This document shows positions 3,414 to 19,415 of a stretch of 34,398 bases of DNA, one piece after another (the stretch's first letter is position 1; each line of letters opens with the position of its first letter). The stretch is from Planctomycetota bacterium (GTDB lineage: Bacteria; Planctomycetota; Planctomycetia; Pirellulales; Pirellulaceae), in contig CAUJKL010000217.1 in assembly GCA_963204995.1 (NCBI GenBank), forward strand, positions 1 to 34,398. Reading direction: 5' to 3'. A program made the translations under genes and the position numbers. The notes below the pieces were generated by a model. That model was not told the origin of the DNA. It made no database searches and worked only from the letters and a program-made list of their open reading frames with translations.

Positions 3414-6400
3414 CTATCGCCCCGTTTCGTCATACAGCGGCAGGTGCCGATAGTGAACTTCTAGCGATAGCAAGTTCAACGCGGTTACGTAAAGCCTTCC
3501 AGCATGTGGTGCCCAGCGATCGGCAACCGGTAGTCGCGGGTTCCAACTGCCAGCGTCCGCTCCGGTCTGAATCTGAGCGTCGAGCAAGACAGGACGAAGC
3601 TGGTCGTTCCACTTCTTCCAATGATCGCCGCCCATGTGGAACATCACTTGTGTCGCATAATACCAATAGTAGGTATCACGTTTTGGATCGCGAGCGGTGC
3701 CGATCGCGGGAGGAGACTCTAACAGAAAGTCCGCGCCGCGAGCCATGTTCTCGTTGTCGCGCCGCCAACCGGTATAGAATCGCATCAGCAAGCCCACGGC
3801 GGTCATCGTCTCACTCGCCACGCGTCCGTGTGCTTGCGACTCCGTATCGGGTGCATACGGATTGTAACGATACTTATATCGCTCGCTGCGAGAGCCTTGA
3901 GCCGCATCCAACCACTGCACAATGCGAGCGTAGGTCTCGGTCGGAACTTCCAAGTTGGCCAGGTCGCCGCTCTTGAGCGCCATCATCATCCAACCGGTTA
4001 CCGAAGTATCCGACTCAAGATTCGGTGCGTACCGCCAACCGCCATACTCCTTATGCTGGCTGGCCACAATGAAATCAATGGCCTTTTGAGCGGGTACTTT
4101 CAACTCGGGATCTTGTGTCATGCCGTAAGCTTCACTCATCGCCAGGGCTGCGATGCCGTGACTGTACAGCCAAACGCTGCGGTTCGATTCGTCGTCCAAC
4201 GGAATGAACAAGTCGCCGTCTTCTTTCTGATGCTCGACCAAATAGTCGATGCCGCGTTTTACCACCGCAGCATACTCGTTGTCGCGGTGCGTATAGCCGT
4301 AGCCCTGGAATGCCAACAGTGCTAACCCGGTCGCAGCTGTATCGGAAACCAACTGGGCGGAATGATCGACAGCTTGCAAATTCCAGCTGCCGTCCGCCAA
4401 CTGCTGACGGGCTAAATAAGCCAAGCCGAGCTCGATGGCTTTATCGGACTGCTGACCAGCTGCCGAGCCCATCGAACCGGGCGCGTCGCCCGGCTGACCA
4501 CGGCCGCGGAAGGCATCGGCGGCGACGACGGCTGCGGTGTTGAAGTTGGGCAATCCGCCAACCTCTTGCCGCACGAAACGAGTTGCCTTCGATTGAATTT
4601 GGAGGCTGTCTTCCCGAGCCCGACGGCTGTTCATTCCCACATCGGCCGCCGGTCGATTGCCAAGACCTCCCGCGCCTTCGAGTGCGTCGATTTCGACTGG
4701 AATGGCACTAGCCGACTGGCGTGACATGGGGCCCAGGTCGCTCGCCAATCCGACATCACCTGCGTCAGCACTCGCGAGCGCGGTCGATGACGGAGCCGAC
4801 GGAACATCGACGGTTGCTGCAACGGAATCGCTTAGCCCAGCGGGGCCAACCGTGGAACGTCGCATCGGTGCGGCACTCGACGATTCGTTCCCGACCGACG
4901 GCCCGTCAGAAGCAGATGCAGAACGCGACTGACTCGCGACACCTGCAATCGCTCCGGAATCGGCAACACCTTCGACCATCTGCCGACCTGATGCAGCGCC
5001 GACCGTTGCTGCGACCGGTGATCCACTTCGACCGCCGGTCAACTCGGCGGCTTTGATTCCCGTGGTATCGACAGGCGAGCCCGATGGCGAGCCACTGGAG
5101 TTAGGCGAACCGGCGACCGTCGCCACGCTGGCGACTGCGTTTGCGGTAAAGCTGCGTGAGGGCGATGCTTTGCTGGGCGAACTCGTGCCACCACCCGGCT
5201 CTGGCGCACCTGTAAATCCATCGGTTGCTTCCGCTCGGCGAACAACGACCGCTCCCGTCAACTCGCCGCCTCCACCGGCCGCCGCCGCGACCTCCGTTGG
5301 CCCAGCCGCGCCACCCGCTGCCGGCGCACCACCTGATGACTCCGCGCGAGCCAGTTGACCGCCAGCTGCTTCGGCACCGGAAGCTGGTTCAGCGTTCGAG
5401 GGCTGTCCACCGGCACTCGTCGCCATTCCGGGCGCGAGCTCCGCGCGAACGGCGACTTGCGGCGCGCCGCCCATCGCTTGACGTGCCAGACGACGAGCTC
5501 GTTCCTTTTCTTCTTCGCTCTCTTCGCCGCCAGAGGCTCCTCCTGCTGCGGCGACTTCGGGCATTTGTGGTCCGCCGTCCGCTCGCGTTGGCGTACCTCC
5601 CGCCAGCGCCGCTGAAGCAGCCGGCGCTTCAGCCGGTGCGGATTGGGAAGAAGGAGCAGCGCCCGAGCCGATCTCCGCTGGCGATGGCTCGCCGCGACCG
5701 ACATCGGCCAGCGTCGGCGCGATCCCTTGTGGAGTCGGTTGTCCGCCGCCCGTTCCAGCAGGTGCGGACGTTTCTGCCGCGACGATGCTGCTTGCTAAGG
5801 TGGGCTGCGGCGTTCCTCCGGAACTGCTACGAGCCAACTGTGGTGCCTGTGCGGACGGATTCAAGTCTGGCTGTCCACCGCCGGAGCCTCGGCTCGCACC
5901 GCCACCGCTAACAACTCGCGTCGGCCCGAGATCGACTTGAACTTGCCCGGCATCCGCGGTCACGGCACCCGGCGCGGCATTGGCATTAGCACGCGTCAGC
6001 GCCCCGCTCGAGCTGGCGGTCAGTTCGGCGGGCTGTTGCGAACCAGCCACGGTCGCCGCTCCGGTCGTTGTGGCGAGAGTCGAGGCACTTGGCCGCTCGG
6101 CACCTGCTAGTGAATGTCGAACTAATGCTGGAGCACTCGGGGCCAGCGCGGCTCCCTCCGGAGTGTTCTGTGTCGCTTCCGCCCGGCGCGCCGAGCCGGA
6201 TGCAACCAGCGAAGGGCTATCCGCCGCATCCAACGCTCGGTCCAAATTCGCAGCTTGTCCAACACCCGAAATACCAGCTAACGAACGGGTCATGGCCGTG
6301 CGTGATGCTTCGGGAGTCGGCGCGGCTTCGCCCGAGTTTGCCTGCGCCGTCGCCGGACTGTCGATGTTGGCGGGCGAGGCAGCAAGCTCGGATGTTCGCG

Positions 6401-8414
6401 AACTGCGCGCCGGACTGTTCGATGCAGCCGCCGCGGAATTGACCGTCGGAGCGCTGGAAGCCGCCGCCCGCGATGAAGAAACAACTTGAGTTGCCGGTGA
6501 AAGTTGCGGTCCTCCAGAAGCTGGCGTAGTACCCGCCGTCGATGCTCCCGAAGTCGCTTGCCGACTCACGCTGTTCGACGAGGCGGCAACCGCGCTGGCG
6601 CTCCCGGTCGCTGAACCGGTGGTCGCTTGAGCAACATTGCTCGCCGCAGTTGCTACGTTCGGCGTCGCCTGTGAAGTGCTTCGCCCGGTCGTTGCTGCCG
6701 CAGTGGATGTCGCAACGGCCGGCGCGGCCATTGCCGTTCGCTGCGGACTCGCCATCGAACCCATCAACGACGGCACGTTGGTCGCCGCACTCGGGACACT
6801 GAAGCTGCCTTCGCTCGCTGCAACTTGAGGGCTCGTGACCGCTTGTCGTCGCACTGCGGATGCTGCGGCGGCGAGTTCGGTCGACTGGGCTGATGTGGAT
6901 GCGGTTGCGGTCTGCTCTGCCGCAGCCGATGTTGTTGGCGCGCTGTTGCTGGCCGTGCTACGACGTGCAACTTGCGACTCGCTTGGCTGGGCAGTCGTTG
7001 TGGGCGACGAAGTGGATGGTGTGCGAGTGCTTTGAGTTACCGTGGGCGATGCTGCGGTCGCAGGCGTTGTCGGCTCGGCCATGGCGGTTTGTGTTTGAGC
7101 CTGCGACGTGGATTGCGTCCGCGCGACAGCGCTCGAAGTCGCTTCGACGGTTGGATTCGCTTGCGCGCTCGGAGCGGGTGAAGGCGCAACTTCCGCGGCC
7201 ATCGTCGCCATATCCGGCCGCGAAGTGGCTCGTGCTCGCTGATTCGCGACGGGAGTCGGTGTCTGTGCCAACGTGGGCTGAGGCGCGGCTTGCTGCTCGC
7301 GTTGCGGCGAAGGCGTGGGGACATCCGCAGCAGGGCTCGGCGTTGGCAGAGTTGCCGCACGATCTGCCTGCGGACTGGTCGTTGTCTGTTGCCTGGCGAT
7401 CGTGTTGCTCGGCGCGACCTCTTGTGGTTGCGTCTGACGCGCGACGCTTGGCTGAACGTTGGAATCGACTTGAGTTCGCGGGACAGCTTGCGGCGTGGCG
7501 ATGCTCCGAGGCATGGTGGGGATCGCCGCCGTTGAAGTCTGCGGACTCGGTTGCTCCGTTGGACGAGCGCGTTCGATGCGCGGCTGTTCGGCTTGTGCCG
7601 TGGCATCGGGAGCGGTCATCGCCCGATTCGCTTGAGTCTCGGTGGCCTGGCGTTGCACTTGCGAATCTTGCGACGCGACGGTCGATGGCTGTGGCGTTTG
7701 CTGCGACGCCGGCTGCGGTTGCTCGACACGCTGATTCGGTTGAGGCTGGGTCTTGGCTGTTTGCTTACTCAACTGAGACATCTGTTCCGCCTGACGCGGG
7801 ACTGTCTCGGCAGGCGTCAGTCGTTGGATCTCATTCGGCTTGACCGTTATCTCGCGTTCGGGAGTCGGGGTCGGCTGACGCTCGGTCGGCGGTTCAGGTT
7901 TTTGTTCCTCTTTGGCGAGCTGCTCCATTTCTGGTTCCGGAGTTTTCGTCTCGACGGGACGAAGGAGATCTTGCTGTTGATCCGGTTGCGACTCGAATTG
8001 AACCGAGTCGTAAATGGGCTCGACCAACGGCTCTCGTTCGACTCGCGTGTCGGCCAGTTCGGTGAACTGAGCCCAAATGCGACCGAAGATATTTGTCTCG
8101 ATCGAGATAATGAACAGGATCAAATGCACGATGATGCAGAGTACAGCAGAGAATTGAACGCCGCGACGAACCGCACGACTCTCGATCTTTCGTAGCAGCC
8201 AGATCAACACACAGACGACGATCGGGATCGCGAACAACCACGTCCAAGCGTTGGCGTACCACTGGCGCTCGTCAAAACGAAGATAGGCGAGGACCGTGCC
8301 GACCAAAAAGCCGCCGAGGACAAACAACGCCAGCATGACGGGCCAGAACTGCTCGTCAAACGCCGCCTCTGTCGGCTGTTTTGTCTTTCGGATTGTGCGA
8401 CGTATTTTTGCCAT
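3414..8414 (-). CDS. Giant membrane-anchored protein with low-complexity linker and C-terminal prenyltransferase/squalene-cyclase-like repeat domain
   Basis: 1666 aa: three N-terminal hydrophobic helices (LALFVLGGFLVGTVLAYL, WLFAIPIVVCVLIWLL, FSAVLCIIVHLILFIISI), P/E/K then A/S/T/Q/G-rich linker, C-terminal QW-like motifs (RQQLADGSW, SQHKEYGGW) and repeated helical hairpins. Confidence 0.85.
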   Translation of the reverse strand: MAKIRRTIRKTKQPTEAAFDEQFWPVMLALFVLGGFLVGTVLAYLRFDERQWYANAWTWLFAIPIVVCVLIWLLRKIESRAVRRGVQFSAVLCIIVHLILFIISIETNIFGRIWAQFTELADTRVEREPLVEPIYDSVQFESQPDQQQDLLRPVETKTPEPEMEQLAKEEQKPEPPTERQPTPTPEREITVKPNEIQRLTPAETVPRQAEQMSQLSKQTAKTQPQPNQRVEQPQPASQQTPQPSTVASQDSQVQRQATETQANRAMTAPDATAQAEQPRIERARPTEQPSPQTSTAAIPTMPRSIATPQAVPRTQVDSNVQPSVARQTQPQEVAPSNTIARQQTTTSPQADRAATLPTPSPAADVPTPSPQREQQAAPQPTLAQTPTPVANQRARATSRPDMATMAAEVAPSPAPSAQANPTVEATSSAVARTQSTSQAQTQTAMAEPTTPATAASPTVTQSTRTPSTSSPTTTAQPSESQVARRSTASNSAPTTSAAAEQTATASTSAQSTELAAAASAVRRQAVTSPQVAASEGSFSVPSAATNVPSLMGSMASPQRTAMAAPAVATSTAAATTGRSTSQATPNVATAASNVAQATTGSATGSASAVAASSNSVSRQATSGASTAGTTPASGGPQLSPATQVVSSSRAAASSAPTVNSAAAASNSPARSSRTSELAASPANIDSPATAQANSGEAAPTPEASRTAMTRSLAGISGVGQAANLDRALDAADSPSLVASGSARRAEATQNTPEGAALAPSAPALVRHSLAGAERPSASTLATTTGAATVAGSQQPAELTASSSGALTRANANAAPGAVTADAGQVQVDLGPTRVVSGGGASRGSGGGQPDLNPSAQAPQLARSSSGGTPQPTLASSIVAAETSAPAGTGGGQPTPQGIAPTLADVGRGEPSPAEIGSGAAPSSQSAPAEAPAASAALAGGTPTRADGGPQMPEVAAAGGASGGEESEEEKERARRLARQAMGGAPQVAVRAELAPGMATSAGGQPSNAEPASGAEAAGGQLARAESSGGAPAAGGAAGPTEVAAAAGGGGELTGAVVVRRAEATDGFTGAPEPGGGTSSPSKASPSRSFTANAVASVATVAGSPNSSGSPSGSPVDTTGIKAAELTGGRSGSPVAATVGAASGRQMVEGVADSGAIAGVASQSRSASASDGPSVGNESSSAAPMRRSTVGPAGLSDSVAATVDVPSAPSSTALASADAGDVGLASDLGPMSRQSASAIPVEIDALEGAGGLGNRPAADVGMNSRRAREDSLQIQSKATRFVRQEVGGLPNFNTAAVVAADAFRGRGQPGDAPGSMGSAAGQQSDKAIELGLAYLARQQLADGSWNLQAVDHSAQLVSDTAATGLALLAFQGYGYTHRDNEYAAVVKRGIDYLVEHQKEDGDLFIPLDDESNRSVWLYSHGIAALAMSEAYGMTQDPELKVPAQKAIDFIVASQHKEYGGWRYAPNLESDTSVTGWMMMALKSGDLANLEVPTETYARIVQWLDAAQGSRSERYKYRYNPYAPDTESQAHGRVASETMTAVGLLMRFYTGWRRDNENMARGADFLLESPPAIGTARDPKRDTYYWYYATQVMFHMGGDHWKKWNDQLRPVLLDAQIQTGADAGSWNPRLPVADRWAPHAGRLYVTALNLLSLEVHYRHLPLYDETGR

Positions 8415-8436
8415 GCTTGATTAAACGGGGTTGATG

Positions 8437-8856
8437 CTAACCACCCTCGCCTGCCGTGTTCATCATGTAATCGTGGATTCCCGCTCGCTTACAAAGATTG
8501 ATCGCGGTCACGGTGTACTCGACCGCTGCCCGCTTGTGTGACCGAATGACTACCGATTGATTCACGGGATTGTTCGTGGCAGCACGCACAAGAACTTCCG
8601 CCAACTCGTCGGTCTCCAGCGTTTGTCCGTTGACGTGAAACTTTCCGTCCTGGTCGATGTTGATGAACAATTCCTTCGGCGCGATCGTCAACGGCATCGC
8701 TTCGCTGGCATCTGGTAGCGGCACGTCGATCTCGCGGTCTTCTTGCGCGAAACGCGTCGCTACCAAGAAGAAAATCAACAGGAGGAACACGACGTCGATC
8801 AGCGGTGTGAGGCTGAGCGTCGAGATCGCTGTACCTTTTTGGATTTTGACTGCCAT
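8437..8856 (-). CDS. ExbD/TolR-family biopolymer transport protein
   Basis: 139 aa, 'STLSLTPLIDVVFLLLIFFLVATRF' carries the single ExbD TM helix with its conserved Asp. Confidence 0.92.
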   Translation of the reverse strand: MAVKIQKGTAISTLSLTPLIDVVFLLLIFFLVATRFAQEDREIDVPLPDASEAMPLTIAPKELFINIDQDGKFHVNGQTLETDELAEVLVRAATNNPVNQSVVIRSHKRAAVEYTVTAINLCKRAGIHDYMMNTAGEGG

Positions 8857-8868
8857 GTGAGCGGCCTG

Positions 8869-9747
8869 TTATTTCGACGCTGAAGTGGATGCTGCGACGG
8901 GCGGCGCGGGGACGCTTTCGGGCTGGTCGCTCAATTCGCCATCGCCAGCTTGCCGACCAAACCGGACGCGGCCTTCGAATCGCTCGACTTGTGGCATCAA
9001 GTTGAACAACATCTCGTCAATCTGATGGAACAGCGTCTGGACGCGGCCTTCGAAGTAATGAGCAAAGATCGCGGCGGGAATCGCGACGCACAATCCGCCC
9101 AGCGTCGTGACGAGCGCGACGTAAATGCCTTCGGCCAAATAGTCCGCCTTGTTCAGGTCAGGTGTCAATTGCGTTGTATCGTGAAACGCTCGGATCATGC
9201 CCCAGACCGTACCCAGCAAGCCGAGCAAGGGTGCCACGGCGGCCGCCAGGATCAGCCAGCGGACATTCGCGTACAATCGATTCGCCTCGCGCTCGCCGGC
9301 CTCGGCCACGGCGTGCTCAAGCTCGTTGTGAGGTCGACCGACCTTCAGCAACATCGCGCGGACGACCGTTGCCGCTGCGGAAGGATATTGCTGGCAGAGC
9401 TTATAGGCCTTGCGTGGATCAAAGCCGCCTTGTGGTCCGCCGAGTTGACCCAGGCCAGTGACCAACGCCTCGGGCAACACACGATCTCGCCGCAAGCCAA
9501 TGAAGCGTTCGATGGTAAAGGTCACCACCAGCAGCGACATCAGCAGGATGGGAATCATGAACGCCCCACCCTGCACCAACAGCGTGAAGATGTTGATGCT
9601 TTCGATCTCGGGGCGTGGAGCCGCACTCGTGACGTCCTGACCAAAGGCCAGCGATGGCGAGACGATGCTGACGGCAGCGAACAGCAGCCCGATCGACAAC
9701 ATGGAATACAGGGCGAGCTTGCGCTCGTCGTCGACGCGATTCAGCAT
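8869..9747 (-). CDS. MotA/TolQ/ExbB-family proton channel protein
   Basis: From MLNRVDDERKLALYSMLSIGLLFAAVSIVSPSLAFGQ (signal-like), then 'LLVQGGAFMIPILLMSLLVVTFTIERFIGLRR' and 'APLLGLLGTVWGMIRAFHDT...VTTLGGLCVAIPAAIFAHYFEGRV', typical of TolQ/ExbB. Confidence 0.92.
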   Translation of the reverse strand: MLNRVDDERKLALYSMLSIGLLFAAVSIVSPSLAFGQDVTSAAPRPEIESINIFTLLVQGGAFMIPILLMSLLVVTFTIERFIGLRRDRVLPEALVTGLGQLGGPQGGFDPRKAYKLCQQYPSAAATVVRAMLLKVGRPHNELEHAVAEAGEREANRLYANVRWLILAAAVAPLLGLLGTVWGMIRAFHDTTQLTPDLNKADYLAEGIYVALVTTLGGLCVAIPAAIFAHYFEGRVQTLFHQIDEMLFNLMPQVERFEGRVRFGRQAGDGELSDQPESVPAPPVAASTSASK

Positions 9748-9768
9748 TCGGGGCCTCTCTTCTCTCTG

Positions 9769-9883
9769 GTAGCCATCACGTTCCGCTGTGATGAGCCCGG
9801 TCAGGACAGATCCCGCCGGGTAAAGTCTTCTTTCGATTGTAATCCAACGGCCGAGGCTCATCACGACGGAGCGTGATGGCTAC
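9769..9883. repeat. REP/BIME-like inverted pair between the TPR gene and exbB
   Basis: GTAGCCATCACGTTCCGCTGTGATGAGCC (9769-9797) versus GGCTCATCACGACGGAGCGTGATGGCTAC (9855-9883): 26/29 as inverted repeat; each arm folds as CATCAC...GTGATG next to a GTAG foot. Confidence 0.85.
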
Positions 9884-9890
9884 TTTATGA

Positions 9891-12800
9891 CTACAACTTT
9901 TCCAATTTGCTCAATTGTTCTTTGGCTTGCTGTACTTTGTCGTGCTGGGGGTGACGCTGGACGACGTAGCTAAAGCTGGATTTCGCGTCCGCGATCAACT
10001 TTGCTTTGGCAGCGGCGTCGCTGGCGGACTTGATTTGCACTTCAGCACAGCGCCCCGCTTCGTAACCCGCCACCGCCTGCCAGGGCTTCACATCATCCGG
10101 GGCTTGTTCGCCCCCGTAGCCATACATTACACGCTTAAACGCGCGGATCGCCGCGTCGAACTTCTTCTGCTCGAAGAGAACTTCTCCTACCATGAACTGG
10201 CCGCGAGCACCAACTTCGCCACGCGACAACTCGGTCGCACGTTCGTAATCCTTGATCGCTGCATCGAGATCCTTCAAGTTTTGCTTGGCGAACCCTCGCT
10301 CGTAAATGGCTTCCGCGAGAAAGGGAGATTCTGGAAACTTGGTGGCGATCTGGTCGAGCATCTCGAGACTGGGCTGCCACTGCCCATCTTGAGCCGCACT
10401 CTGCCCACCGTGCAGCAACGTGAGCACTTGCTTCTGCTCGTCGGCAGAGGGCTTCTTCGAGGCGGCGGCAAAGGCTTCGAATGCATCCTTATATCGTTTC
10501 AGCTTGAACAAGCATTCGCCTTTCATGAACAAGCCATCCGCCGCCAAGCTACCGTCGGCATACGCTTTCAGCTGTTCCTCGAACTCTGCCAAGGCAGCAT
10601 CGTACTTCTCAAGTCGAAACTGAGCCCAACCGAGTTTGTGAATCGCGCGCTCGGCAACTTCGCCTCGTTCCGCTTTGCTTTTAGCTGCCGTGTACGACTT
10701 GACCGCTTCGGCGTATTCGTTCTTGTTATAAAGCGATTCCGCCACGTGTAGATTGGCTTCGGCGGAGAGCGGGTTGTCGGGATAACTGGCAGCTAGTTTC
10801 GCGAAAGTCGTCACGGCATCGTCCGGCTGATTCCGGTTCGTGTATGCCCAACCAAGCTCGTACAACACATTCGCGGCACTGGCATAATCCTTATTCTCGG
10901 CCAACAGCGATTCGAAAGTGGCGGTTGCTTGCTCGAACTTCTTCAAGGCGACTTCGGCCAATCCCCGTTCGTACAAGGCGTCGGACTTCTGCGGCTGCGT
11001 GGGATTGGATTTGAGAAAGGAGTCGAAATCCTTGACTGCGTTCTCGAAATCAGCGGTTTGCCGTCGGCACATGCCGCGTGCCAAGTACGATTCTGCGGCG
11101 AGTGTGTGTTCCGGATACTTATCGATTAGTGCTGTAAAGCTCTCCACGCCGGCGGGAAACTGCTTTGCTTTCAGCGACGACCAGCCTTTGCCGAAATAGG
11201 CGTAGGGAGCGAAGACCGAATCGCTCCACTTGGCGATGACCGCATCATAAGCAGCCGTCGCGGCGGCGTAGTCGCCCGACGCATAGTTGTATTCACCCAA
11301 GCGGAAGTTCGCCTGATCGAGCACGGCACTTTCCGGAAAGCCTTTGATCAACTTGCTGACCGTCGTCTTGGCGACATCCAATTGTTTGAGGCCGCGTTGA
11401 GCTCGCGACAAGTACAGCAAGGTCTCGTCGGCTTGTCGCCACTTCGGATCGGCTGCGATCGCTGCCGCGAGTGATTGGGCAGCGGGTTCAAATTGATTCA
11501 ACTGGAACTGGCTGGCCCCCAGCAAGAATTGTCCTTCTGCGATCTGCTCCGGTCGCTTCAACTCCTTGACAGTTTCCTGCAAGGCCGCGATGGCGTCTTC
11601 GTACTTCTTCTCCAGATACAATACGAGCCCCAACCGAACGCGCCATGAATCGTATTCGGCATGCTCTTTGTGGTTCGCCAACAAGTCGCGATAGCCCGCC
11701 TCGGCCTCCTCGTGTTTGCCAAGTTTCAAATTACAATCGGCAGCCACGTACTTGGTGTCCGGCAGGAAGCGGTCATTGGGATACTTGGCGATGAAAGCCG
11801 CAGCGTGCTTGAGCCCCTCGTCGTACTTGCCCAGTTCGAGGGCCGTGAAGGCGGCGTTGTAGAGAGCTTGTGCAGCCAGTTCGCTGTCGCCATGATCGCT
11901 GACGATTTGAAGGTACTTGGCAAGCGACGCTTCGCGACGATCCGGCAATGCGTACATACCGTCCGCTTCGTCCAACTTCAAATTGACGAGGAATTTACTC
12001 TCGGCGGCTTTCGGAAGTTGTTGCTCGGCGAGTGCGATGGCCTTGGCGGGCTCTTTGGCTTGCAGATGAATGCGACAGAGCCAGTGAGCGGCTTCCGGGG
12101 CTTCGGCTTTGCCCGCGTCGATACTCTTTTGGAACCAAATCGCGGCGTTGGTAAAGTCATTTGCGCGGTAAAACGCTCGTCCCGCCGCGATCGTAGCGTC
12201 GCCTAGATAAGTCGATTCTGGATAGTCCGTCGCGAGCTTGGCATATAGCTTTCCAGCCTCGTCAAATTTCTCAAGCTTCGCCGCGCAGTCGGCTTGGCGG
12301 AAGATCGCGTGATCCGCCGCAGCAAACCCTTCGATACCCGCTACCTCGCCGAACATTTTTTGGGCTGCCGCGACATCTCCGCCCTGGAACACGGTCTCGG
12401 CCTTCCGCATGCGAACTTCGTTGTAGAGCGCGCTGCCCTGGAACTCTTTCAAAAACAGGTCATAGATCGCACCTGCATCGGAATACGCTTGCTCTTCTTC
12501 GTAAGTCACTCCCAAGGCATACAACCCGTCGCTGCGCAAGGACGATTTCGGATGATCATCGATCAGTTTGCGATAGGCGGCGATGGCTTCGGGCTTCTTC
12601 TGAAGTTCGTACAGCGATTCGCCCAGGTAGAAAAGCGCCTGATCGGTGTACTTGCCTTTGGGAAACTGCCGGACCAAAGCCGCGAACGCCGCCGCGGCCT
12701 TCGATAGATTTTCGGTTCGGTCCCCCGCCTTGGCCGAATAGCGGCACCAACCGAGGTTGAGAAACGCGTCTTCAGCCAACTCGAACTTAGGATCCGCCTT

Positions 12801-13115
12801 GAGGATCGTTTCAAAATGGTCCGCCGCCTTGTCGTAGGCTTTCAATTGGAGATAGCAAACGCCAGCGTAATGTCGCGCCTTGGGAGCCAGCGGGTCTTTT
12901 GGAAACTCTTTCAGGAACTTCTCCCACTCTTCGGCAGACAAGGCGTATTCGCCGTTATTTTGAAAACTGGCGGCGTCTGAGTAGACAGTCAGTGCCTTGG
13001 GCGAGGATTTTGGCGCTTCAGTGTCCTGCGCGGCACAGTTAGTTGCCGACACGATGACAGTTAAAGCAGCGAAGGTCGCGAGAGCGAACGGCGATCTCAT
13101 GAAAATGGTCCTCAT
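9891..13115 (-). CDS. Large secreted TPR-repeat protein (CpoB/YbgF/BamD-like repeats)
   Basis: N-terminus MRTIFMRSPFALATFAALTVIVSATNCAAQ (signal peptide) then many TPR units (AKARHYAGVCYLQLKAYDKAADHFETILKADP...). Confidence 0.88.
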   Translation of the reverse strand: MRTIFMRSPFALATFAALTVIVSATNCAAQDTEAPKSSPKALTVYSDAASFQNNGEYALSAEEWEKFLKEFPKDPLAPKARHYAGVCYLQLKAYDKAADHFETILKADPKFELAEDAFLNLGWCRYSAKAGDRTENLSKAAAAFAALVRQFPKGKYTDQALFYLGESLYELQKKPEAIAAYRKLIDDHPKSSLRSDGLYALGVTYEEEQAYSDAGAIYDLFLKEFQGSALYNEVRMRKAETVFQGGDVAAAQKMFGEVAGIEGFAAADHAIFRQADCAAKLEKFDEAGKLYAKLATDYPESTYLGDATIAAGRAFYRANDFTNAAIWFQKSIDAGKAEAPEAAHWLCRIHLQAKEPAKAIALAEQQLPKAAESKFLVNLKLDEADGMYALPDRREASLAKYLQIVSDHGDSELAAQALYNAAFTALELGKYDEGLKHAAAFIAKYPNDRFLPDTKYVAADCNLKLGKHEEAEAGYRDLLANHKEHAEYDSWRVRLGLVLYLEKKYEDAIAALQETVKELKRPEQIAEGQFLLGASQFQLNQFEPAAQSLAAAIAADPKWRQADETLLYLSRAQRGLKQLDVAKTTVSKLIKGFPESAVLDQANFRLGEYNYASGDYAAATAAYDAVIAKWSDSVFAPYAYFGKGWSSLKAKQFPAGVESFTALIDKYPEHTLAAESYLARGMCRRQTADFENAVKDFDSFLKSNPTQPQKSDALYERGLAEVALKKFEQATATFESLLAENKDYASAANVLYELGWAYTNRNQPDDAVTTFAKLAASYPDNPLSAEANLHVAESLYNKNEYAEAVKSYTAAKSKAERGEVAERAIHKLGWAQFRLEKYDAALAEFEEQLKAYADGSLAADGLFMKGECLFKLKRYKDAFEAFAAASKKPSADEQKQVLTLLHGGQSAAQDGQWQPSLEMLDQIATKFPESPFLAEAIYERGFAKQNLKDLDAAIKDYERATELSRGEVGARGQFMVGEVLFEQKKFDAAIRAFKRVMYGYGGEQAPDDVKPWQAVAGYEAGRCAEVQIKSASDAAAKAKLIADAKSSFSYVVQRHPQHDKVQQAKEQLSKLEKL

Positions 13116-13213
13116 TATCTGATCGAATCCCTGAAGCTGGTTATTCCAGATTGTGGCCATATGGCGTGTGCGCGCGGAACAGAACTCGCGTTATCGGCCA
13201 TCGTCGGGAGAGA

Positions 13214-13219: not shown

Positions 13220-13447
13220 GATGGCGTGGGTTCTTTCGTAATGCCTGGCCAGCCTTACCCGCGTATCTTGAATAACAATTTACCGCTCTGGTGGTGAAAA
13301 GGAAAGCCGCAGTTTTGTACGCAGGCCATGCAGGCGAGGGAGAGCTTCACTATGATGTGGCATCCAAACGGGCTATCGGAAGGCTGCGTGGAGCCACAAA
13401 TTACGACTGCGGCAGCTTCACGCCCTGAAAGAAATTACAAAGCGGCA

Positions 13448-14899
13448 ATGAAGACAGGCTCATCGCAAGTTGAATTCGGCGATTTCCAGACGCCTGCGGG
13501 GCTGGCACATTCTGTATGCGCGTACCTCGCGCGGCTGGGGGTTGCGCCGGCCACGATCATTGAGCCAACTTGTGGAGTCGGAGCGTTTTTACTGGAGTCG
13601 CTCGCAGCGTTCCCGCGTGCCGAGAAGGCTCTCGGCTTCGACATCAATGCGGAATATGTCGCGAGTTGCCGACAATTGATCCTGGCGACCGGCCACCAGC
13701 ATCGTGCCCAGGTTACAGAGGCGGACTTCTTTCAAGCCGATTGGCAGAAACTCCTGGACGCTGCCTCACCGCCACTGTTGGTCATCGGCAATCCACCTTG
13801 GGTGACCAATGCCGCTCTGGGAGCGATCGGCAGCTCGAACCTGCCCGTCAAAACGAACTTCCAAGGCCGAAAGGGGCTCGATGCGGTAACCGGCAAGAGC
13901 AACTTTGATATTTCGGAATGGATGTTATTGCACTTCCTGGAGTGGTTGAGTGGTCGCCAGGCGACGTTGGCGATGCTCTGCAAGACGGCCGTGGCGCGGA
14001 AAGTGTTGCGACACGGCTGGAAACAAGGACTTCAGATCGAACGAGCCGAGCTGCACGGGATCAATGCCGTTGCTAACTTTGGAGCGTCGGTTGATGCGTG
14101 CCTGCTGGTCTGTTTCATGCAGCCCGGCTCGCATTCTTGCGACTGCGACGTTTACGAGTCGCTTGACAACTCCGCCAGCCAGCAGCGGACGATCGGCTAT
14201 CACGACGAACGGCTGATCGCGGACCTGGAGTTATACCAGCGGCGACGAGAACTCGCCGGTTCGTCTTCCTACCGCTGGCGATCTGGCGTGAAGCACGATT
14301 GCGCGAAGGTCATGGAGTTGTCTGAATCGCCGGATGGACTCATGAACGGCTTTGGTGAGGTTGTGGAAATCGAAGACGAGTACCTTTATCCCATGCTAAA
14401 GAGTTCCGACGTGGCGAAGCAGGCATTGGCACCGCCGAAGCGATGGATGATCGTCACTCAAGCGGAAGTTGGAGCCGATACATCCGCCATCGAGACATTA
14501 GCGCCGCAGACGTGGACATATTTATCCGCACACGCCGACCGACTGGATCGACGCGGCAGTGCGATTTACCGCAAGCAACCTCGCTTCTCGGTCTTCGGAG
14601 TTGGTGCGTACACGTTTTCACCTTGGAAGGTTGCCATATCTGGTTTCTACAAATCTTTGTCCTTTGCAGTTGTGGGCCCGCATCAAGGGCGACCGGTTGT
14701 ATTTGACGACACGATCTATGCGATTGGGTGTGAAACCGAGCATGAAGCGAGATTACTGCATCGCCTGCTCATGAGCGACGAAGCGCAGGAGTTCTATCGG
14801 TCGATGATCTTCTGGGATGCGAAGCGAACCATCACCGTCGAACTGCTTGCCGCGCTCAGCCTCGATAAGCTCGCCGCTACCTGTGATGCTGTTCGCTAA
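13448..14899 (+). CDS. N6-adenine DNA methyltransferase with C-terminal target-recognition-like region
   Basis: 'QVEFGDFQTP...IIEPTCGVGAFLLESL' (SAM motif I) and 'VIGNPPWVTN' (NPPW catalytic motif); long C-terminal 'PRFSVFGVGAYTFSPWKVAISGFYKSLSFAVVGP' region; start taken at MKTGSSQVEF. Confidence 0.85.
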   Translation: MKTGSSQVEFGDFQTPAGLAHSVCAYLARLGVAPATIIEPTCGVGAFLLESLAAFPRAEKALGFDINAEYVASCRQLILATGHQHRAQVTEADFFQADWQKLLDAASPPLLVIGNPPWVTNAALGAIGSSNLPVKTNFQGRKGLDAVTGKSNFDISEWMLLHFLEWLSGRQATLAMLCKTAVARKVLRHGWKQGLQIERAELHGINAVANFGASVDACLLVCFMQPGSHSCDCDVYESLDNSASQQRTIGYHDERLIADLELYQRRRELAGSSSYRWRSGVKHDCAKVMELSESPDGLMNGFGEVVEIEDEYLYPMLKSSDVAKQALAPPKRWMIVTQAEVGADTSAIETLAPQTWTYLSAHADRLDRRGSAIYRKQPRFSVFGVGAYTFSPWKVAISGFYKSLSFAVVGPHQGRPVVFDDTIYAIGCETEHEARLLHRLLMSDEAQEFYRSMIFWDAKRTITVELLAALSLDKLAATCDAVR

Positions 14900-18428: not shown

Positions 18429-19415
18429 GTGAAGCAAGTCTTAGTTACCGGCGGAGCCGGATTTATTGGATCGCATTTGACCGAGGCGCTTCTCGCGCGT
18501 GGCGACCGCGTGACGGTGATCGATGACGAGTCGACCGGCAATGCGAATAATCTTGTCGCCGCTCGCCAAAATGACCGTCTGACCTTCATCCAAGGTTCTG
18601 TCGGTGAAGAACAAGTTGTCCGGGAACTGACCGCCGGCGTGGACGAAGTCTATCACTTAGCTGCTGCGGTCGGCGTGGCGTTGATTGCCCGCGCTCCGAT
18701 GGAGACGATCGAGCGGAATATCTTTCCCACCGAGCTGGTTCTATCGAGTCTCCGCGAGCGGATTCAGCGCGGCGAACGCGTGAAATGCTTCCTCGCCAGC
18801 ACCAGCGAAGTCTATGGCAAGAACCCAAAGGAGACATGGTCGGAAGAGGACGATCTCGTCTTCGGTTCGACAACTCGCCCACGCTGGTCGTATGGGGCGT
18901 CGAAGGCCATCGACGAATTCATGGGACTGGCCAGCTATCGCGAGTACGGGTTGCCCGTTGTCATCGGACGATTCTTCAATGTCGTGGGACCGCGACAGAC
19001 GGGCGCTTATGGAATGGTGCTACCGCGATTTGTCGAAGCCGCGTTGGCAGGTCAGCCTTTGGTTGTCCACGACGATGGCCGACAAACCCGCTGCTTCGCC
19101 CATGTCGATGACGTGGTCCGCGCCGTTGTCACCTTGATGGAGACGGAAGCCGCCGTGGGCCGCGTCTTTAACATCGGCAGCGACCAACCGGTTTCGATTC
19201 TCGATCTCGCGAAACGCGTGATCGAGTTGTCGGGATCGAAGTCGTCGATCGCGTATCAGAGCTACGCCGATGCTTACGACGAGGACTTCGAAGACATCCG
19301 GCGGCGGGTCCCCGATCTGACTCGGCTGCGAGCCACCATCGGCCACTTGTCGGATCACAACCTGGATAGCATTATTCACAAGGTGATCGATTTTCACCGG
19401 CACCGCACCAGCTAG
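18429..19415 (+). CDS. NAD-dependent epimerase/dehydratase (extended SDR)
   Basis: MKQVLVTGGAGFIGSHL (GGxGFIG Rossmann motif), YGASK catalytic motif, 'GRFFNVVGPRQ'. Confidence 0.92.
   Translation: MKQVLVTGGAGFIGSHLTEALLARGDRVTVIDDESTGNANNLVAARQNDRLTFIQGSVGEEQVVRELTAGVDEVYHLAAAVGVALIARAPMETIERNIFPTELVLSSLRERIQRGERVKCFLASTSEVYGKNPKETWSEEDDLVFGSTTRPRWSYGASKAIDEFMGLASYREYGLPVVIGRFFNVVGPRQTGAYGMVLPRFVEAALAGQPLVVHDDGRQTRCFAHVDDVVRAVVTLMETEAAVGRVFNIGSDQPVSILDLAKRVIELSGSKSSIAYQSYADAYDEDFEDIRRRVPDLTRLRATIGHLSDHNLDSIIHKVIDFHRHRTS

Follow-up and report, generated by a model that had tools for sequence, protein, structure and literature searches.

A total of four genes lying head to tail on the minus strand were found in a 34,398-nucleotide stretch of DNA (the window; contig CAUJKL010000217.1, positions 1 to 34,398) from a Planctomycetota bacterium of the Pirellulaceae. 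In order of transcription they encode a tetratricopeptide repeat (TPR) protein, an ExbB/TolQ-type and an ExbD/TolR-type motor subunit, and a giant protein of 1666 amino acids (aa). We consider it likely that this operon encodes a trans-envelope machine driven by the proton motive force, in which the giant would dock on ExbB by its third transmembrane (TM) helix, TM3, its linker would cross the periplasm and its C-terminal toroid would be the effector end, with the TPR protein as a candidate partner. Support for this reading comes from gene linkage, motor residues, a docking motif, the charge-based topology, the fold of the toroid, and the independence of the system from both TonB receptors and TolB. 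The features concerned are as follows.

3414..8414, minus strand: giant transducer candidate of 1666 aa with three TM helices, a disordered linker and a C-terminal alpha/alpha-toroid
3417..4463, minus strand: C-terminal alpha/alpha-toroid, residues 1318-1666, from AlphaFold2, Foldseek and hidden Markov model (HMM) searches
4464..8042, minus strand: low-complexity linker, about residues 125-1317, P/E/Q-rich and then A/S/T/G-rich
7953..8018, minus strand: short conserved motifs after TM3, P-[ED]-Y (133-135) and D-[WFYL]-x-[KRQ]-P-V (149-154)
8103..8162, minus strand: third TM helix of the giant, about residues 85-104, in which Cys93-x3-His97 is the putative equivalent of the Ser-x3-His of TonB/TolA
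8437..8856, minus strand: ExbD/TolR-type subunit of 139 aa (PF02472, 1e-23), with Asp21 in its single TM helix
8869..9864, minus strand: ExbB/TolQ-type subunit of 331 aa counted from a GTG start (PF01618, 4e-26)
9891..13160, minus strand: secreted TPR protein of 1089 aa, with an N-terminal hydrophobic signal and TPR repeats across most of its length

The order of the genes and the spacing of 12 bp between exbB and exbD and 22 bp between exbD and the giant gene agree with an earlier reading made from the sequence alone (the sequence-only reading), all the open reading frames (ORFs) being located on the minus strand. The length of 1089 aa claimed there for the TPR protein stands but requires the ATG at 13160, as the ATG at 13115, where that reading had the gene begin, is internal to the ORF and gives 1074 aa. 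The true start of ExbB is probably Met40 at window position 9747, since near orthologs have 292 aa, which would widen the gap between the TPR and ExbB genes from 26 to about 140 bp. Pfam and NCBIfam models matched ExbB, ExbD, the TPR protein and the squalene-cyclase-like C-terminus of the giant; the TIGR02795 matches over 11 stretches of the TPR protein are those expected for any TPR_6-rich protein.

A strong match to the toroid was found in 31 of 40 sampled relatives, with a single match in each genome, and the TPR-ExbB-ExbD-giant order was present in most of the neighbourhoods retrieved from them. An independent scan of genome contigs yielded 80 giant loci, including those of Rhodopirellula baltica (L149), Blastopirellula marina (L186), Roseimaritima (L119) and Stieleria (L153, L156), of which 66 had enough upstream DNA for a test of neighbours. 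The exbD gene lies directly upstream on the same strand in 62 of these 66, exbB and exbD are both upstream in 51, and the TPR gene additionally precedes them in 48, so that the neighbourhood proposed for checking in the sequence-only reading was found to be conserved. The upstream region lacks exbBD and the TPR gene in four loci (L129, L135, L147 and L152), where exbBD was still missing on re-check. Among 294 genomes sampled from the phylum, giant orthologs at E<=1e-85 were confined to the window's own order.

Judged by their residues, both motor subunits appear intact, with a proton path of the ExbB/TolQ-ExbD/TolR type. The pore residues of ExbB, which include the proton-path threonines of TM2 and TM3, are invariant across orthologs (T219, 53/53; T253, T254 and P263, 54/54 each), as is the proton-binding Asp21 of ExbD in all 68 orthologs with a letter at that position. 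The best NCBIfam equivalog scores were obtained against TolR for ExbD and TolQ for ExbB. In Escherichia coli, Ser16 and His20 of TonB and Ser18 and His22 of TolA contact a serine in TM1 of the motor (Ser34 of ExbB and Ser28 of TolQ), and the contact histidine is essential (PMC12215075). Ser110 in TM1 of the window ExbB, conserved in 51 of 52 orthologs, is equated with this serine by positional alignment. Expression of the R. baltica genes exbB (RB12053) and exbD (RB12055) rises at high salinity (PMC2754498), although these tags cannot be mapped to this operon. No phenotype data for the operon genes were found in the literature, and the main text of the Planctopirus essential-gene paper has no ExbB, TolQ or TonB.

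The decisive addition to the sequence-only reading is the Ser-x3-His motif in TM3 of the giant. Three TM segments (26-44, 56-74 and 85-103) were observed in Kyte-Doolittle windows, the number claimed before. Position 93, a cysteine in the window protein, is occupied by Ser (53), Cys (14) or Gly (6) in all 73 orthologs, while position 97 is His in 64 and Asn in 9; the later Leu and Ser of the SHLS motif are not conserved in giant orthologs. By comparison, unrelated proteins encoded at the same loci have S-x3-H in 4 of their 469 TM helices, and an extended set has it in 4 of 332, a background of about 1%. These residues indicate that a docking helix of the TonB/TolA kind is present in the giant, as TM3 instead of TM1. 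Of the four orthologs that lack linked exbBD, three (L135, L147 and L152) have the Asn, a small number which is suggestive of a correlation between loss of linkage and the His-to-Asn change, as if these proteins were uncoupled from the motor. The net charges of the giant (N-terminus +3, loop 1 0, loop 2 +4, post-TM3 -2) fit the positive-inside rule and thus put its N-terminus inside, predicting a periplasmic linker and toroid, as the sequence-only reading had supposed, with TM3 running in-to-out like the TonB helix.

Two short motifs, P-[ED]-Y and D-[WFYL]-x-[KRQ]-P-V, follow at about 30-50 residues past TM3, with P133 and Y135 each conserved in 47 of 73 orthologs, D149 in 61, P153 in 67 and V154 in 54. 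They are candidates for a contact with the motor or the wall in place of the TonB D-box, the ExbD-binding strand in which hydrophobic and polar residues alternate (PMC10907165). The AlphaFold2 model of the giant N-terminus shows three helices, the third of which extends to residue 123, but adds little because its predicted TM-score (pTM) is 0.49 and no strand is formed past TM3.

The linker of the giant consists of about 1200 residues, almost without aromatics and Cys. Its length varies from 356 to 1810 aa among orthologs (median 501), with the N- and C-terminal ends of the protein conserved. The ratio of nonsynonymous to synonymous substitutions (dN/dS) against the near ortholog L107 is 0.047 for the N-terminus, 0.118 for the linker and 0.034 for the toroid. 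These low values in all three regions indicate that the whole giant frame is a real, constrained protein, and the linker and toroid are under purifying selection.

The squalene-cyclase-like toroid that the sequence-only reading had seen at the C-terminus was recovered by several methods. It matches PF13243 with 27.5 bits, above the cut-off, and HMM searches matched it to squalene-hopene cyclase. The AlphaFold2 model, built with 59 orthologs, is essentially all-helical (pLDDT, the predicted local distance difference test, 93; pTM 0.92), and Foldseek retrieved the small squalene-hopene-cyclase-like cyclases 8paj and 6sbe and other alpha-toroid enzymes with TM-scores of about 0.6-0.67. The giant has no Pfam TonB_C match and the toroid model is not a TonB/TolA fold; nor was a vWA domain found at the C-terminus by Pfam search or in the AlphaFold2 model. 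The toroid is the most conserved part of the protein, with E1428, D1435, D1469, D1580, D1632, E1652 and a YYWYY stretch invariant. Because many acids, aromatics and histidines are invariant across orthologs, the toroid likely contains a conserved site for binding or catalysis. Catalysis of the squalene-cyclase type through the known acid motif was rejected, since the DXDD motif, which had been reported missing before, is indeed absent, any D.DD string occurring in just one of 59 orthologous toroids.

For the working of the machine we infer physical docking, force transmission, a ligand of the toroid and a role for the TPR protein. ExbB and ExbD would form a standard ion-driven inner-membrane motor in which, following the E. 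coli Ton and Tol literature, proton flow would turn ExbD inside an ExbB pentamer. The giant would dock outside ExbB through the Ser/Cys-x3-His of TM3, as its motif suggests, and the long disordered linker would span the periplasm and relay motion or tension to the toroid. The toroid may then grip or act on a partner in the periplasm or outer envelope; the secreted TPR protein suggests itself as that partner or as an adaptor.

In diderm bacteria, the textbook systems that drive processes at the outer membrane are Ton and Tol; a third type of transducer, ending in a vWA domain, was not proposed until 2025. The envelopes of planctomycetes are unusual, and their cell division does not involve FtsZ. 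In these bacteria a conserved motor whose effector end is ring-shaped is a concrete candidate for what powers the outer envelope, and the operon is found in named relatives, for example Rhodopirellula baltica, Blastopirellula marina and Stieleria. With the Ton system it shares an ExbB/ExbD motor with an apparently intact proton path, a Ser-x3-His docking TM helix, a Pro-rich periplasmic linker and a globular C-terminus, whereas it differs in lacking TonB_C and, in the giant class, the D-box, in its three TM helices, in an operon that includes a TPR gene, and in not requiring a receptor, as seen in genome G023. The likeness to Tol-Pal consists of a motor pair adjoining a TPR gene, a long-linker protein and the best model scores being those of TolQ and TolR; however, TolB was not found in eight relatives and the end domain is unrelated to TolA domain III. 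The toroid fold is that of squalene-hopene cyclases and other type II terpene cyclases (PF13243; 8paj, 6sbe), with weak but significant sequence similarity, although squalene-hopene cyclase has two toroids and DXDD while the giant has one toroid without DXDD, attached to a membrane anchor and linker.

The nearest parallel is with the vWA force transducers of the PVC (Planctomycetes, Verrucomicrobia and Chlamydiae) group, in which a TPR gene and motor genes are followed by a protein with an SHLS-bearing TM helix, a linker and a vWA domain (Williams-Jones et al. 2025, PMC12204202). Both systems have a PVC host, a TPR gene, a tolQ/tolR-like motor and a TM-linker-globular protein whose end is unlike that of TonB or TolA. 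The vWA systems differ in having a tolR pair, a linker of about 100 aa and a vWA Rossmann fold, whereas a single exbD, three TM helices, the far longer linker of the orthologs and an alpha/alpha-toroid are found here. The operon thus seems to parallel the vWA transducers, with the same logic and an unrelated effector domain. Neither 'toroid' nor 'squalene' occurs in the text of PMC12204202, and no description of a toroid-ended transducer was found in the literature searched, which took in few subscription papers.

Additional toroid genes were found in the window's own genome. One belongs to a second TPR-ExbB-ExbD-toroid operon (L021:2407-8848, contig C106), whose toroid protein of 711 aa has both S-x3-H (SVFAH) and a D-box-like IRLAFV; S-x3-H also occurs in others as SSMLH, SLVFH, SMIVH and SLVAH. 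The C106-class operon is conserved across the order, exbB and exbD being kept upstream in 20 further genomes; in one locus of this class (L227) about 2 kb lie between exbD and the toroid gene. S-x3-H was observed in the last TM helix of all 21 loci of the class and a D-box-like strand (for example GEEMRVTMVED) in 10 of 20, where shuffled sequences give 1.6. In the tree, a single clade (100/100) holds the anchored toroids, with the soluble ones outside it; the giants and the C106 class are separate groups inside this clade. The presence of S-x3-H and D-box-like strands in this sister family suggests that the motor side of Ton and Tol can be reused as a module, evolution having joined it to no fewer than three unrelated end domains.

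Toroids at E<=1e-40 were found in 54 of 79 genomes of a phylum-wide sample, and an N-terminal TM helix with S-x3-H in 25 of the 29 toroid proteins examined phylum-wide. As most of the S-x3-H toroids across the phylum are not beside exbBD, they would need a motor in trans, and we assume that they share motors in this way; with 6-11 ExbB-family genes per genome in the relatives, motors are plentiful. At a little under an even chance, we tentatively regard the phylum-wide family of S-x3-H-anchored toroids as envelope effectors driven by the proton motive force, with several paralogs per genome, some having their own exbBD and many sharing motors, which would partly replace TolA and TolB and act alongside or instead of TonB.

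Variant arrangements were also observed in the window's own genome. On contig C620 (L020:4248-9846), an ExbB-like gene precedes those for two GYF/TM proteins, of which the latter has a toroid at its end; next come two small TM proteins that have an Asp close to the helix but no Pfam ExbD match. This cluster is possibly another motor variant. A vWA protein (TM SLTVH) adjoins a toroid protein (TM SSMLH) on contig C175 (L022:5797-9995), both with TonB-like anchors, and no exbBD was found on the stretch examined. On contig C637 (L031:2067-6531), the gene for an S-x3-H vWA protein precedes those for a TPR protein, ExbB and two ExbD-like proteins, an arrangement resembling that of the vWA force transducers reported in 2025.

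Several observations weigh against the giant as a transducer coupled to this motor. It has three TM helices, whereas TonB and TolA have one at the N-terminus, and the canonical D-box pattern is absent from all 73 giants, shuffled sequences giving 6.6 on average. Six of the nine orthologs with Asn for His97 still adjoin exbD, and about 15 loci, several of them from Pirellula genomes, have exbD adjoining the giant gene without an adjacent exbB. Outside the order, exbD was found beside just 2 of 20 phylum-wide S-x3-H toroids, a lower bound as the phmmer screen for exbBD linkage lost some ORFs to overlap (six loci lost the toroid itself). The proposal of the sequence-only reading that the giant is a TonB/TolA analogue is upheld by linkage, topology, toroid and the Ser-x3-His of TM3, but not by a D-box or a TonB/TolA C-terminal fold. 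Since these last two are missing, we regard the giant as TonB/TolA-like in mechanism, an analogue outside the TonB/TolA family.

The toroid could instead be an enzyme tethered to the inner membrane (a cyclase, lyase, epimerase or glycosidase-like protein), with ExbBD energising or gating access of the substrate and no force exerted on a partner. The strong conservation of the toroid with its invariant acids and aromatics is in keeping with this, as are its structural neighbours, which are mostly enzymes (cyclases, AprG aldolase, sugar epimerases and GH76), and the presence in 25 loci of a nucleotide-sugar epimerase gene close to the operon, which in the loci listed is upstream and divergently oriented. 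We nevertheless find it rather unlikely, as the DXDD motif is missing and the paralogous toroids are nearly all on an S-x3-H anchor, which makes motor coupling the common feature; catalysis and force coupling are in any case compatible with each other. The operon might also be the Tol system of the order, with the giant a highly diverged TolA and the TPR protein a CpoB, holding the outer membrane at division. Its TPR gene adjoins a motor that scores best as TolQ and TolR, and TolB (TolB_N) was found in none of the eight relatives, which agrees with the reduced Tol-Pal system described in Planctomycetes (PMC8871954) and would allow a substitute for the classical system. A diverged Tol system is improbable, however, given the all-alpha toroid in place of a TolA fold, the same lack of TolB and a TPR-first gene order unlike that of tol-pal.

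It is most improbable that ExbBD serves an ordinary Ton system, with TonB encoded elsewhere and the toroid protein an unrelated neighbour that merely shares the operon. The sequence-only reading had named a tonB dedicated to this exbBD pair as evidence that would count against it, and TonB_C proteins and TonB-dependent receptors are in fact present in most relatives. They are encoded at separate loci, with several TonB_C genes beside receptors and none beside the TPR-ExbB-ExbD-giant operon, in genomes that offer many other ExbB-family genes. In addition, the operon is present in G023 (99% complete) without TonB_C or a receptor barrel and in G013 without TonB_C, and an ordinary Ton system would leave the S-x3-H motif and the two operon classes unexplained. 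A Ton-system role for ExbBD was rejected on the separate loci and on these two genomes.

Other genes were found around the operon. A TPR protein with a Cys-containing signal (possibly a lipoprotein) is encoded at 1319-2326 on the minus strand, and about 15 loci keep this gene close to that of the toroid protein. A 523-aa ORF at 13328-14899 on the plus strand has the NPPW motif typical of DNA adenine methyltransferases, without a Pfam match at 1e-5. Finally, an NAD-dependent nucleotide-sugar epimerase/dehydratase is encoded at 18429-19412 on the plus strand, 5 kb from the operon here; its homologs lie near the operon in about 25 loci, many of them divergent and adjoining the TPR gene, which raises a possible link of the operon to envelope polysaccharide.

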